This document shows positions 12,869 through 15,757 of a DNA stretch of 21,057 nt, one piece after another. The notes under the pieces are model-generated. The model made no database searches. It worked only from the letters and a program-made list of their open reading frames with translations, and had not been told where the DNA came from. A program made the translations under genes and the position numbers. Origin of the DNA: a virus; the IMG/VR virus record IMGVR_UViG_3300037327_000056, positions 1 through 21,057 of that record; one strand, 5' to 3'. Within the stretch, counting starts at the first letter, position 1. Each line of letters opens with the position of its first letter.

Positions 12869-13360
12869 TTAATAATTTATTGTTAATTCGATTTTAGCAT
12901 CAATTAGTTCATTGATTTGAACAAATCTGCATGTTTTTTGTTTAATAAACTCAACAGTATCTTCCTTGATTACTTTTTCGAGGACTAGAGTGTCGTTTCC
13001 TATTTTTGTCCATAAATCGGCTAGATTATCTAAGTCCCACGATGGTTTGTATCCTTTTTTGGGTGGATTCCAAGATATTCCTGATTTTAGTTTTCGAACG
13101 TCTCCGTGATTATATACTGTATGAAATTCATAGGTCAATTGAATATTATTACTATCGATGTTCATTCCCTTAAACTGCTCGTCTATATTATCAGCGAAGT
13201 AGTAATGCAAGTTGTTTACAACTATAGCTCTTGCAAAACGATTAAGCACTCCGTTATAAATGGATTGGTTGTTTATCTTGATATACTTGTCTACCGCTTT
13301 TTTATTAGCCGTTTTGGGAATATGCGTGATAAGCGGGATTGTGATTTTTATTTCATTCAT
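12869..13360 (-). CDS. rusA: RusA-like Holliday-junction resolvase
   Basis: 163 aa. The C-terminal half has the RusA signature: D109-L-D111-N112-L..LW.K..N-D123-T-L, followed by KVIKED (E133, D134) and V136. In Escherichia coli RusA the corresponding aspartates bind the catalytic metal. The N-terminal half has the family's N...K...YRF-like core (VLNRFARAIVVNN) and a strand before the active site. RusA dimers cut four-way junctions symmetrically; in phages they resolve recombination intermediates and branched DNA before packaging. This fits the annealase and exonuclease encoded upstream in the same direction. The insert HTVYNHGDVRKLKSGISWNPPK before the DxDN motif is longer than in E. coli RusA. 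Start ATG 13360. Confidence 0.8.
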   Translation of the reverse strand: MNEIKITIPLITHIPKTANKKAVDKYIKINNQSIYNGVLNRFARAIVVNNLHYYFADNIDEQFKGMNIDSNNIQLTYEFHTVYNHGDVRKLKSGISWNPPKKGYKPSWDLDNLADLWTKIGNDTLVLEKVIKEDTVEFIKQKTCRFVQINELIDAKIELTINY

Positions 13361-13479
13361 ATCGATTATTGGGTTTTAATTTCGTAAGCGAAAACAGTTG
13401 CTTTCTGATTATCTTACGTTAAGCATTATTTTTACTAGGTCTTACGAGGTATAAATACATATAGTAGTTATACGATAGC
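13361..13479. other. Non-coding spacer upstream of rusA with CGTAAG repeats
   Basis: No frame longer than about 13 codons. The hexamer CGTAAG/CTTACG occurs three times: 13383-13388, 13413-13418 (inverted to the first) and 13441-13446. The first two form an inverted repeat around a 24-nt centre. It could be an operator, or a diverged member of the spacer family seen in the next 2 kb (it also has CTTAACG on the minus strand). No clear promoter was found. Confidence 0.35.
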
Positions 13480-13767
13480 TTAAAACTGAATCTTCATCCA
13501 TCGACTAACTGTTTCATTAATAAGCCAATCATTATGATTAATTTCATCTACTTGATACCAATCAAAAAAATAATTACCATCGATAAATCCCTCGTAACAT
13601 TGACCGGTGAATCTTTTTCCATTCATAGTTTCAGCAAGAAATAAATCACTTTGTTTGCCATCCCATTCTCCAATAATATAACACAATGGTAACTCTTCGT
13701 CGAGAGAAAGCCATCGTATAACAACGGTTTGCACGCATTGCTCGTTTTTGTTTATATCGTTTTTCAT
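13480..13767 (-). CDS. DUF551-like small phage protein
   Basis: 95 aa. The ends match the DUF551 plan: IRWLSLDEELP near residues 17-27 (family form W.sV.erLP) and SRWMKIQF at 88-95 (family form tHWmplp), with a beta-rich centre containing DLFLAETMNGKRFTG and YFFDWYQVDEI. DUF551 proteins are common single-domain phage and prophage products of unknown function. In contrast to the upstream replication genes it does not overlap its neighbours: it lies 82 nt after the previous gene behind a cassette-like spacer. Confidence 0.5.
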   Translation of the reverse strand: MKNDINKNEQCVQTVVIRWLSLDEELPLCYIIGEWDGKQSDLFLAETMNGKRFTGQCYEGFIDGNYFFDWYQVDEINHNDWLINETVSRWMKIQF

Positions 13768-13796
13768 TTATTTTTAGTTTTTAATAATTAATATTA

Positions 13797-13840
13797 TTTT
13801 TCATAAGTCGCAACGATGTGCAAGCCGCATCCGTTATCAC
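13797..13840 (-). repeat. Cassette-like spacer element 1 (attC-like)
   Basis: Minus strand reads TAACGG (13836-13831), then GGCTTGCA, CATCGTTGCGA and TTATGAAAAATA. AACGGATG pairs with CATCGTT with one bulged G, giving an imperfect hairpin of the kind formed by integron attC sites. It begins 14 nt after the stop of the 63-aa gene and is clearly related to the element at 14156-14202. Confidence 0.45.
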
Positions 13841-13849
13841 TCAGCTTGA

Positions 13850-14041
13850 CTATCCTATTATCCAATTAAGAATTGGAGTAATTAATATTGAGAAAATAAT
13901 AATAAAAAGCATAAAAATAGGGGCTATTAAATAAAATTCTTTTGGGAATTCTTTTTTAGATACAATACAAATTAAATGCATTAATCCTACTGTTACTTCT
14001 ACTAAAAAAACCATAGCAATTATTAATCTTATTTTGTTCAT
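13850..14041 (-). CDS. Small two-TM membrane protein (accessory)
   Basis: 63 aa made almost entirely of two hydrophobic helices, residues 4-26 (IRLIIAMVFLVEVTVGLMHLICIV) and 38-61 (FYLIAPIFMLFIIIFSILITPI), joined by a short charged loop SKKEFPKEF. It would sit in the inner membrane as a hairpin with both ends on the same side. The gene is flanked by cassette-like spacers on both sides and ends with TAG. No family is recognised. Short two-TM proteins in phage accessory regions are often involved in superinfection exclusion, but nothing in the sequence proves this. Confidence 0.5.
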   Translation of the reverse strand: MNKIRLIIAMVFLVEVTVGLMHLICIVSKKEFPKEFYLIAPIFMLFIIIFSILITPILNWIIG

Positions 14042-14055
14042 AATTTTTTGTTTTA

Positions 14056-14202
14056 ATGAAGCCGAAGTGATAACATTTGTTTTGCCTCATTGCTTCGACC
14101 TGTAGTTAATTAATGTTTATTTTTCATAATTACTTTCATCTTATCCGAAAGTGTATTTTTCATAAATCAGCAACGTTGCAAAGCAAAGTACCGTTAGCAA
14201 AC
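14056..14202 (-). repeat. Cassette-like spacer element 2 with 17-codon mini-frame
   Basis: The promoter-proximal half (14202-14156, minus strand) has TAACGG containing the TAA stop of the 133-aa gene, then GCTTTGCA, ACGTTGC and TTATGAAAAATA, closely similar to element 1; TTGC/GCAA and AACG/CGTT pair on one side of a bulge. An ATG at 14163 opens a 17-codon frame ending at 14110. The distal half (14102-14056) has an inverted repeat GAAGC (14058-14062) / GCTTC (14092-14096) and the 11-mer ATAACATTTGT (14070-14080), which recurs exactly at 14990-15000 in element 4. Confidence 0.45.
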
Positions 14203-14595
14203 GGTCTGAACAACCGTTTCGTAATTAAAAGCCGTACCCATCCAAAATGAATGAATAATAGTTCTATATAGTCTTTTAGAATTCATTTGATGTTTATTTT
14301 GAGAATGAAAACTAATTGGATCTAATGTTTGTGCAGGAGTTGAATATCGCTTTACTGTAAAATCATATTTACCACCTTTATCTTCTACACAATTTTTTAA
14401 ATAATATTCAAATGACGGCAGTTGATTTTTTGAACTTCCAAGCCATCTTTTGGTGTCGTTTGCTATAATATCACATCTAAAAACTAAAAAATCTTTATAG
14501 TGGTCTAATTGCTCAAAAATATCGTGCAAGACCGATTTGCTAACATCGGTTTTGTTCAATGCCTCGTTTTCGTTAATTTCAAATTCTGTTTTCAT
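14194..14595 (-). CDS. Accessory protein of unknown function (133 aa)
   Basis: 133 aa, soluble, mixed helix and strand. The N-terminus is acidic helix (FEINENEALNKTDVSKSVLHDIFEQL), the middle has FLVFRCDIIANDTKRWLG and a charged helix, and the C-terminus has LYRTIIHSFWMGTAFNYETVV. No motif is recognised. Its TAA stop (14196-14194) is part of the TAACGG core of the spacer that follows, as in integron cassettes, where the attC site begins at or near the stop. The start ATG at 14595 follows a 76-nt spacer containing element 3. Confidence 0.4.
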   Translation of the reverse strand: MKTEFEINENEALNKTDVSKSVLHDIFEQLDHYKDFLVFRCDIIANDTKRWLGSSKNQLPSFEYYLKNCVEDKGGKYDFTVKRYSTPAQTLDPISFHSQNKHQMNSKRLYRTIIHSFWMGTAFNYETVVQTVC

Positions 14596-14623
14596 AATTA
14601 CATTTATTTTAAGTTGAAAGTTT

Positions 14624-14668
14624 AGTTTTCAAAAGTCATCACTAAACAAAGCCGAGAACCGTTAGCAG
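14624..14668 (-). repeat. Cassette-like spacer element 3 (attC-like)
   Basis: Minus strand reads GCTAACGG, TTCTC, GGCTTTG, TTTAGTGATGA, CTTTTGAAAAC. It shares TAACGG plus GGCTTTG with elements 1 and 2 at the same spacing, and CTAAC can pair with GTTTAG around the centre. It starts a few bases after the stop of the 85-aa gene. Confidence 0.45.
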
Positions 14669-14671
14669 TAA

Positions 14672-14929
14672 TTAATCTGAAAACTTGACAAATAAAAATG
14701 AAAAAAATAAAAATCCAGATTGCCATCTCCAAGCATCTATATTCATAAAACTACCAGTAAAATAGTAATCAATCCATATAACTTTGAAGTTCATCACAAA
14801 TCCAAAATTAGTTTCTAATCCAAGTATGCCAACAAATAGTAAGTTCATTACTGTTAAAGTAAGTGGTATTACTAACGTCAATGCATATACTTTAAATGTC
14901 CATTCTAAATCATCTTTTATTTTCTTCAT
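14672..14929 (-). CDS. Small membrane protein with two hydrophobic segments (accessory)
   Basis: 85 aa. A charged N-terminus (MKKIKDDLEW) precedes a long hydrophobic helix at about residues 14-36 (VYALTLVIPLTLTVMNLLFVGIL). A polar middle rich in aromatics (FKVIWIDYYFTGSFMNIDAWRW) leads to a second hydrophobic segment at 69-81 (SGFLFFSFLFVKF). Probable inner-membrane protein. No family is recognised. Composition (Trp/Phe/Tyr-rich) differs from the replication proteins nearby, in line with separate acquisition. It lies between spacer elements 3 and 4. Confidence 0.45.
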   Translation of the reverse strand: MKKIKDDLEWTFKVYALTLVIPLTLTVMNLLFVGILGLETNFGFVMNFKVIWIDYYFTGSFMNIDAWRWQSGFLFFSFLFVKFSD

Positions 14930-14959
14930 TTTTTTAATATTTTATCTTTAATTAACTAC

Positions 14960-15049
14960 TACTAACACTTGTTATTAGCAAGTTTGCCAATAACATTTGT
15001 GCTAAATTTTAAGAATTCTGCAAGGCAAAATTGCTCATAGCACCATAAG
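14960..15049 (-). repeat. Cassette-like spacer element 4 with strong hairpin
   Basis: A 120-nt gap between the 76-aa and 85-aa genes. It holds an almost perfect 26-nt palindrome at 14970-14995 (TGTTATT.GCAA..TTGC.AATAACA, one G-T pair), an adjacent inverted repeat GTGCTA (minus, 15042-15037) / TAGCAC (minus, 15004-14999), and a GCAA/TTGC hairpin between them. The 11-mer ATAACATTTGT at 14990-15000 is shared with element 2. There is no T-run on either side, so it is not a terminator. Confidence 0.45.
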
Positions 15050-15280
15050 TTATAAGTAATTATCACAAAGCACATCATCTATCAAACAAAATGCACAATC
15101 CATTAGCTGTATAATGTTTTTACCGTCATTTCGTATAGGTTTGCTTAATTGAATTCCTATTACTAAATCCTCCACGTCTTTATTGTTCTTTTCTGCTTGA
15201 TTAAATAAAAAACGGCTTATAATACTACCTATATGTAACACCTTTCCATTTTTATCAAAAATTTCTATATCTAATTCCAT
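15050..15280 (-). CDS. Small soluble protein of unknown function (76 aa)
   Basis: 76 aa. It begins with a strand-turn-strand (LDIEIFDKNGKVLHIGSII), continues with a helix (SRFLFNQAEKNNKDVEDL), and ends with IGIQLSKPIRNDGKNIIQLMDCAFCLIDDVLCDNYL, which holds three Cys. Mixed alpha/beta and acidic. No family is recognised. It is the first of the loosely spaced accessory genes after the NinG-like gene and is preceded by a 54-nt spacer with TAACGG. Confidence 0.45.
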   Translation of the reverse strand: MELDIEIFDKNGKVLHIGSIISRFLFNQAEKNNKDVEDLVIGIQLSKPIRNDGKNIIQLMDCAFCLIDDVLCDNYL

Positions 15281-15296
15281 TGTTTTAGTATTTTAA

Positions 15297-15338
15297 GTTC
15301 ATGTAGTTTTAAGACACTACACATAGCCTAACCGTTAC
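15297..15338 (-). repeat. Cassette-like spacer element 5
   Basis: Minus strand: TAACGG (containing the TAA stop of the NinG-like gene, 15337-15335) continues as TTAGGC, then TGTAGT and ACTACA, a 6-bp hairpin with an 8-nt loop. GTTAGGC matches the integron core-site pattern GTTRRRY. It marks the right-hand boundary of the spaced accessory region. Confidence 0.4.
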
Positions 15339-15757
15339 ATCTTATTTCCTCCATGTATTTTACTTAGTTGATACTCCTTTGCTAATTCTGAATTATTCTC
15401 TAATTCAATGTTATGTTGCGAACAGCATCCCGCCCAAGTTTTTGTATCTAAATAATTACTTCCCCATCTTCCTGCTCGATGTTCAATTGTATTAGCTTCT
15501 CTATTACATCCTTCAATAAAGCATTTTTTGTTTTCCGGCTTTCCTAAAAATTCTATCCTTAGTACGGAGTATTTCAATTGATCTATTTGCCTTTTCTTAG
15601 AAAACTTTGGTATTGTTTTTTGCTTTTCTTTTGGAAATGCTTTTAGCTTTCCACTTTGAAACTGTTTTTTGCACTCATAATCTCCACAGGTTTTATCGAA
15701 ACTACTGTAGGGTGTAAATGGAGTTTCGCATACTGTACATAATTTATCTTTTATCAT
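15335..15757 (-). CDS. NinG-like zinc-finger / HNH-type protein
   Basis: 140 aa. The N-terminus has a zinc-ribbon type knuckle, C7-x2-C10 ... C24-x4-C29, followed by a basic linker rich in Lys. The C-terminal half has C79-x4-C84, then TIEHRAGRWGSNYLD (H93, residues 90-104), C111-C112 and H115-N116. This order, a zinc knuckle followed by a GR.G..YLD...W..CC..HN box, resembles phage NinG/Rap-like and related HNH-fold recombination proteins; lambda NinG (Rap) stimulates Red recombination and targets branched DNA. A general HNH nuclease is the alternative. The start ATG overlaps the TGA of the upstream 49-aa gene (ATGA). Confidence 0.55.
   Translation of the reverse strand: MIKDKLCTVCETPFTPYSSFDKTCGDYECKKQFQSGKLKAFPKEKQKTIPKFSKKRQIDQLKYSVLRIEFLGKPENKKCFIEGCNREANTIEHRAGRWGSNYLDTKTWAGCCSQHNIELENNSELAKEYQLSKIHGGNKM

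Follow-up and report, generated by a model that had tools for sequence, protein, structure and literature searches.

The question raised by this locus is whether five small genes that stand apart from each other in a viral genome form an array of exchangeable cassettes, as an earlier note on the sequence had proposed. The window, i.e., the whole stretch of DNA analyzed, is an IMG/VR virus record of 21,057 bases. Its structural genes lie on the plus strand (with one head/packaging match), and its minus strand carries genes for replication and recombination, namely a replication initiation protein, an exonuclease, a RusA-like and a NinG/HNH-like protein. The five genes are located on the minus strand between the latter two and are separated by gaps of 54–152 nt, as the note had stated. 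The HNH/NinG-like gene (15335..15757, minus strand) matched phrog_7108 with an E-value of 2e-33 and the HNH family phrog_2323 with an E-value of 0.014. The RusA-like resolvase gene (12869..13360, minus strand) matched phrog_1682 (E-value 0.004), and its product is 75% identical to the homologues in the relatives L006 and L007. Searches of the window for Rfam families and for tRNAs returned no matches.

In L006 and L007, the homologues of the HNH and RusA genes overlap or are separated by 12 nt, with nothing between them, and the 1,867-bp block of the window (13467..15333, minus strand) is therefore an insertion. It consists of five attC-gene units, and its edges are the AAC of the HNH stop codon and the AAC of the last R'' box. 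The earlier note had considered that spacers and genes might be conserved as a fixed block in all relatives; this is not the case, as the block is absent at the same flanks in these two relatives and homologous units are found elsewhere in other contexts. All five genes are on the minus strand. The first (15050..15280, 76 aa, from the ORF list) has its start codon within the loop of the first site and gave no family matches above cut-off. The second (14672..14929, 85 aa) contains hydrophobic stretches that suggest a membrane protein, and the fourth (13850..14041, 63 aa) likewise encodes a small putative membrane protein. The third (14194..14595, 133 aa) follows a boundary after which 258 nt lack an in-frame ATG. 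The fifth (13480..13767, 95 aa) has homologues in the phage-contig arrays L391 (55% identity) and L408 (42%, in the body of the protein only). The products of genes 3 and 5 had no matches in the phage record collection, and the Pfam and PHROGs searches assigned a function to none of the five proteins.

The spacers had been described as sharing motifs from the stop codon on and as folding into hairpins. The motifs TAACGG, GGCTTTG, CGTTGC and TTATGAAAAATA are indeed shared among the spacers beyond chance. The arms of the hairpins also pair, but a spacer accounts for no more than the 5' half of its site, the 3' half often lying within the start of the next gene. The complete attC-like hairpins are approximately 85–125 nt long, with the start codon often within the loop, and in the window the 3' half, GCAA..CAAAACCG..GTTA, reaches up to ~50 nt into the next ORF. 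The five sites, again on the minus strand, are attC1 (15217..15340), which is degenerate, with ATT for GTT at the R' box, and whose 5' arm begins at the HNH stop codon; attC2 (14960..15055), of a short type; attC3 (14538..14667), with an in-loop start codon and the leader MKTEFEINENEALNKTD; attC4 (14068..14199); and attC5 (13716..13839), with an in-loop start codon and the leader MKNDINKNEQCVQTV, a near-identical site being present in the phage contig L046/L274. When the arms of the sites, delimited as 15336–15223, 15051–14966, 14663–14544, 14195–14074 and 13835–13722, were shuffled, the observed pairing score was reached by 1, 4, 24, 11 and 1 of 1000 shuffles for sites 1 to 5, respectively. 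DNA folding recovered the hairpin as the minimum-energy structure for sites 3–5 and, on the plus strand, for site 2 (fold z-score of −2.8 for attC3). The energies of several window sites were only modestly better than those of shuffled sequences; the folding proposed in the earlier note recovers hairpins for several of them, with energies that by themselves did not decide the matter.

A second signature lies in the ends of the units. In units 2–5, the start is complementary to the unit's own end at 9–13 of 14 positions, with the own-end comparison the best for each, although the start of unit 2 is also complementary to the end of unit 1 (11 of 14). Such complementarity would be expected of a unit that had once been circular and contained a single complete site, like an integron cassette. 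The match between the bases after GTT and the bases before AAC of the same unit is an integron-cassette signature. The AAC and GTT are conserved in the core boxes of the window, and several boxes depart from the R/Y pattern of RYYYAAC/GTTRRRY, e.g., GTTATAC and GTTATCA.

Related arrays were found by pattern and read whole (L046/L274, L275, L276 with ~18 units, L277 and L278). An alignment of 31 sites contained 13 consensus pairs, of which 12 showed compensatory changes on both sides. The covariance model built on these 31 sites, among which were the three strong sites of the window, scored attC3, attC4 and attC5 at 98.6, 90.5 and 86.5 bits and matched the two others weakly, attC1 with 21.7 bits (E-value 0.03) and attC2 with 20.8 bits. 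A covariance-model search, as suggested in the earlier note, thus matched all five sites with the model built here. In having AAC/GTT core boxes and compensatory arms, the hairpins agree with those that define an integron. A scan of genome contigs with a short motif was too loose and gave mostly chance matches; in the order to which G001 belongs, a similar motif matched 7 of 346 genomes, which did not exceed the reversed-pattern controls.

Could the block be an ordinary hot spot for accessory genes, with terminators or promoters as spacers and genes moved by homologous or illegitimate recombination? Moron genes are frequent at such places in phages, and hairpin spacers could terminate transcription. 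However, the spacers did not prove to be ordinary promoters or terminators, and the exact AAC boundaries, the complementarity of each unit's own ends, the compensatory covariation, the fixed arrangement of attI and recombinase and the unit-wise junctions of the Freya phages at one fixed trinucleotide (both described below) argue against this explanation, which we regard as extremely unlikely.

After the last gene of the window lies an attI-like terminal site, TCGTATAAC-TACTATATGTATTTATACC (13449..13475, minus strand), whose core AACTACTATATGTA also precedes a recombinase gene in L275, L277 and others. A conserved AAC-TACTATATGTA adjoins the 3' end of the array in L275 and L277 as well as in the window, and in L275 and L277 the terminal site is directly followed by a gene for a tyrosine recombinase of 267–268 aa. 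The 21-kb window contig contains the array and the attI-like site and lacks a recombinase gene; the array may therefore be inactive or served in trans. Viral contigs were searched with the L275/L277-type recombinase, yielding 8 and then 80 loci, and the counts were made on the 66 whose upstream sequence was 500 nt or longer. Cassettes were present in 65 of these 66 loci, 294 in total, on IMG/VR contigs some of which may include non-phage DNA; a Markov-resampled control was not free of matches, with 23 cassettes in 14 of the 66 loci. A terminal site was found in 61 viral loci, in most of them as an R''AAC followed by a TAYTATATRTA-like core ~55–100 nt before the recombinase. This order of array, terminal site and integrase is also that of the cultured phage Leef_1.

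The recombinases of the relatives are XerA/XerC-like and group with those of the cultured phages Freya and Ingeline. Their best family was NF040815 (recomb_XerA_Arch), with 179–225 bits at a cut-off of 220. They remained below the cut-off of TIGR02249 (141–211 bits vs. 265) and lack the IntI-specific insert, with 61–67 residues between the motifs as compared to 109 in true IntI. The title of NF040815 in NCBIfam, 'site-specific tyrosine recombinase/integron integrase', hints at integrons even though these proteins are without the IntI insert. A true IntI above the family cut-off was found in one of 295 Bacteroidia genomes. This protein (L280; G492:C40:3592-4530) contains the insert and scored 422 bits, and the covariance model had no match in that genome.

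The best evidence that the units are mobile is the natural variation among the Polaribacter phages Freya_1 to Freya_10 (MT732463-MT732472), isolated on one host, of which seven isolates were read. The isolates differ directly upstream of the integrase gene by 842, 902, 472, 307 and other numbers of bp, and in all nine pairwise comparisons the junction lies in a stretch that both genomes share and that ends in AAC, before ACCCCTATAAC or another attC. At one junction, Freya_6 and Freya_9 differ in the units present, and the differences in genome length among the isolates are gains or losses of units at attI. The gain or loss at an AAC boundary that the earlier note had suggested looking for in related phages is thus seen between cultured isolates. 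Together with the terminal sites, these junctions place the insertion point in related phages at the attI beside the recombinase.

The isolation paper took the integrases of Freya, Leef and Ingeline as an indication of temperate potential (PMC8776804), and the words 'integron' and 'cassette' are absent from its main text. A further explanation would be that the neighbouring recombinase is a lysogeny integrase and the arrays are incidental. We find this very unlikely, as all but one of the 66 viral loci have an array adjoining the recombinase, and every attI-side variant of Freya has its breakpoint at the terminal site. A temperate lifestyle inferred from the integrase may accordingly be wrong for the Freya phages, and calling a phage temperate on an integrase alone would become questionable.

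With five attC sites, where at least two are required, and no integron integrase nearby in 21 kb, the array of the window falls under the definition of a CALIN. It could then consist of canonical gene-attC cassettes, taken from a host integron with IntI and frozen in the phage. The attC-like hairpins with AAC/GTT boxes are compatible with such an origin, and CALINs are already on record for phages, one of them a Polaribacter phage with an attC2 that IntI1 can use (PMC9892861). An array in a phage is on that account not new in itself. To determine polarity, homologous genes were compared for the flanking site that they share. Among 8 informative pairs from related viral arrays, to which the units of the window do not belong, the gene kept its preceding site in 5 and its following site in none; 3 were undecided. 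Two viral cases are exact: L353 and L374 have an identical 264-bp unit whose preceding sequence is the same in both and whose following sequence differs, and L394 contains a unit in duplicate. In independent viral loci that had not been used in building the model, 62 of 62 model matches were on the cargo strand. In chromosomal arrays of Bacteroidota, in contrast, the following site travels with the gene, and in 38 of 43 loci (our own tally) the strand that carries the cargo is opposite to that of the phage arrangement. The phage unit is therefore attC-gene, reading toward attI, and the order of gene then attC that characterizes integrons is not that of the related viral arrays. Together with the attI-like terminal site and the non-IntI recombinase adjoining the arrays, the rarity of true IntI in Bacteroidia genomes and the Freya junctions at the R'' AAC, this polarity makes a frozen canonical CALIN unlikely.

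The polarity also bears on translation. A start codon is found inside the site in 82 of 250 viral coding units and in 11 of 146 chromosomal ones. Most of the viral in-site starts are located 40–60 nt ahead of the boundary and give leaders like MNTVLENAESSNALKP; chromosomal arrays lack this peak. In the window, genes 1, 3 and 5 begin inside their own sites. Since the phage site belongs to the same unit as the gene, a unit carries its own translation start, and the in-site leaders are probably translated. An initial idea, that the units are canonical gene-attC and borrow a start codon from the neighbour, was rejected for the phages by the homologous-unit test and the Freya junctions.

We conclude that the block in the window is very probably a cassette array of an integron-like phage system, recombined by the XerA/XerC-like enzyme of related phages. 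The cassette-like array described in the earlier note is hence real, and its integron-cassette reading is supported in its one-gene units, attC-like sites and boundaries; it has to be amended in that the units are attC-gene, the attI-like site is at the 3' end and the recombinase of the relatives is not IntI. In the proposed mechanism, each unit would begin with an attC-like hairpin site and carry one small gene behind it, and the XerA/XerC-like tyrosine recombinase next to attI would join the AAC of a unit site, folded as a single strand, to the AAC of attI. Units would thus be gained or lost at the attI end. Cargo oriented toward attI could be read by early phage transcription, and in about one-third of the viral cassettes the start codon in the unit's own attC loop, with a leader of ~14–20 aa, would provide its own translation start. 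The phage of the window would need the recombinase in trans, supplied by a co-infecting phage or encoded in a portion of the genome that the contig lacks.

The system works like an integron, and by the criteria of IntI and of gene-attC order it is not one. With integrons (IntI, attI and attC; class 1 and sedentary chromosomal) it shares one-gene units, AAC/GTT hairpin sites, capture at attI and a simple attI-like site adjoining a tyrosine recombinase. It differs from them in the missing IntI insert, the attC-gene units, the start codon in the site and the position of attI, which in cargo orientation follows the array at its 3' end. The phage CALINs of Qi et al. 2023 (PMC9892861) similarly are attC cassettes in phage genomes, DNA methyltransferases included; they were found by IntegronFinder/HattCI and assayed with IntI1, and the portions of that paper on which we draw do not mention a dedicated class of phage recombinase, such an attI or reversed polarity. 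In P12002L the present model matched one weak site only (31.5 bits). Complete integrons are very few in Bacteroidetes according to IntegronFinder 2.0 (PMC9024848). Like XerC, XerD and XerA, the phage recombinase has NF040815 as its best family match and lacks the IntI insert; unlike them, it is partnered with a cassette array and attI instead of a dif site. No description of the arrangement of recombinase, attI and reversed cassettes, or of start codons in attC, was found in the open-access literature, so that its novelty is provisional, most subscription papers and preprints lying outside this coverage.

The cargo is mostly without known function. About one-fifth of the 60 largest viral cargo proteins matched families of DNA methyltransferases, Mom or DNA-glycosyltransferases. 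Matches among the 60 included five C5 and four N6/N4 DNA methylases, methylases of the D12 and Dam types, Mom and a TET-associated glycosyltransferase, besides PAPS reductases and further families. These matches would fit counter-defence and a rapid trade in protection against restriction. In the viral contig L276 (IMGVR_UViG_3300044612_002213), the cargo of the ~18 cassettes includes a DNA methylase-like protein. Array and recombinase together appear to be an undescribed gene-capture system by which phages trade genes, e.g., for DNA-modification enzymes, which suggests a dedicated gene-shuffling system in Bacteroidota phages, with isolates on one host already varying unit by unit. On balance, we favour the further view that it is a separate, phage-specialized class that arose from a Xer-type recombinase independently of IntI, with reversed units carrying their own start codon and serving the exchange of counter-defence genes, and that the 'lysogeny integrases' annotated in some phages of this group are cassette recombinases. 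The definition of the integron would widen, and the IntI insert would seem unnecessary for hairpin cassettes.

The site family is also found on chromosomes, with model matches at an E-value of 1e-4 or better in 113 of 247 sampled Bacteroidota genomes. In the loci that were read, chromosomal arrays (G057:C1:110000-147000, i.e., L291+L292, as well as L293, L294, L299 and others) mostly consist of a recombinase, attI and then gene-attC units; the check by own-end complementarity covered the loci retrieved. Those of L291+L292, L294 and L299 resemble the phage arrays in site family, in polarity relative to attI and in a related simple recombinase, and differ from them in their gene-attC units and in a recombinase of ~350 aa that forms a separate clade. 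A small-unit array with phage-type polarity is located on contig 85 of G001, Flavobacterium gawalongense (L295), and may be a prophage remnant.
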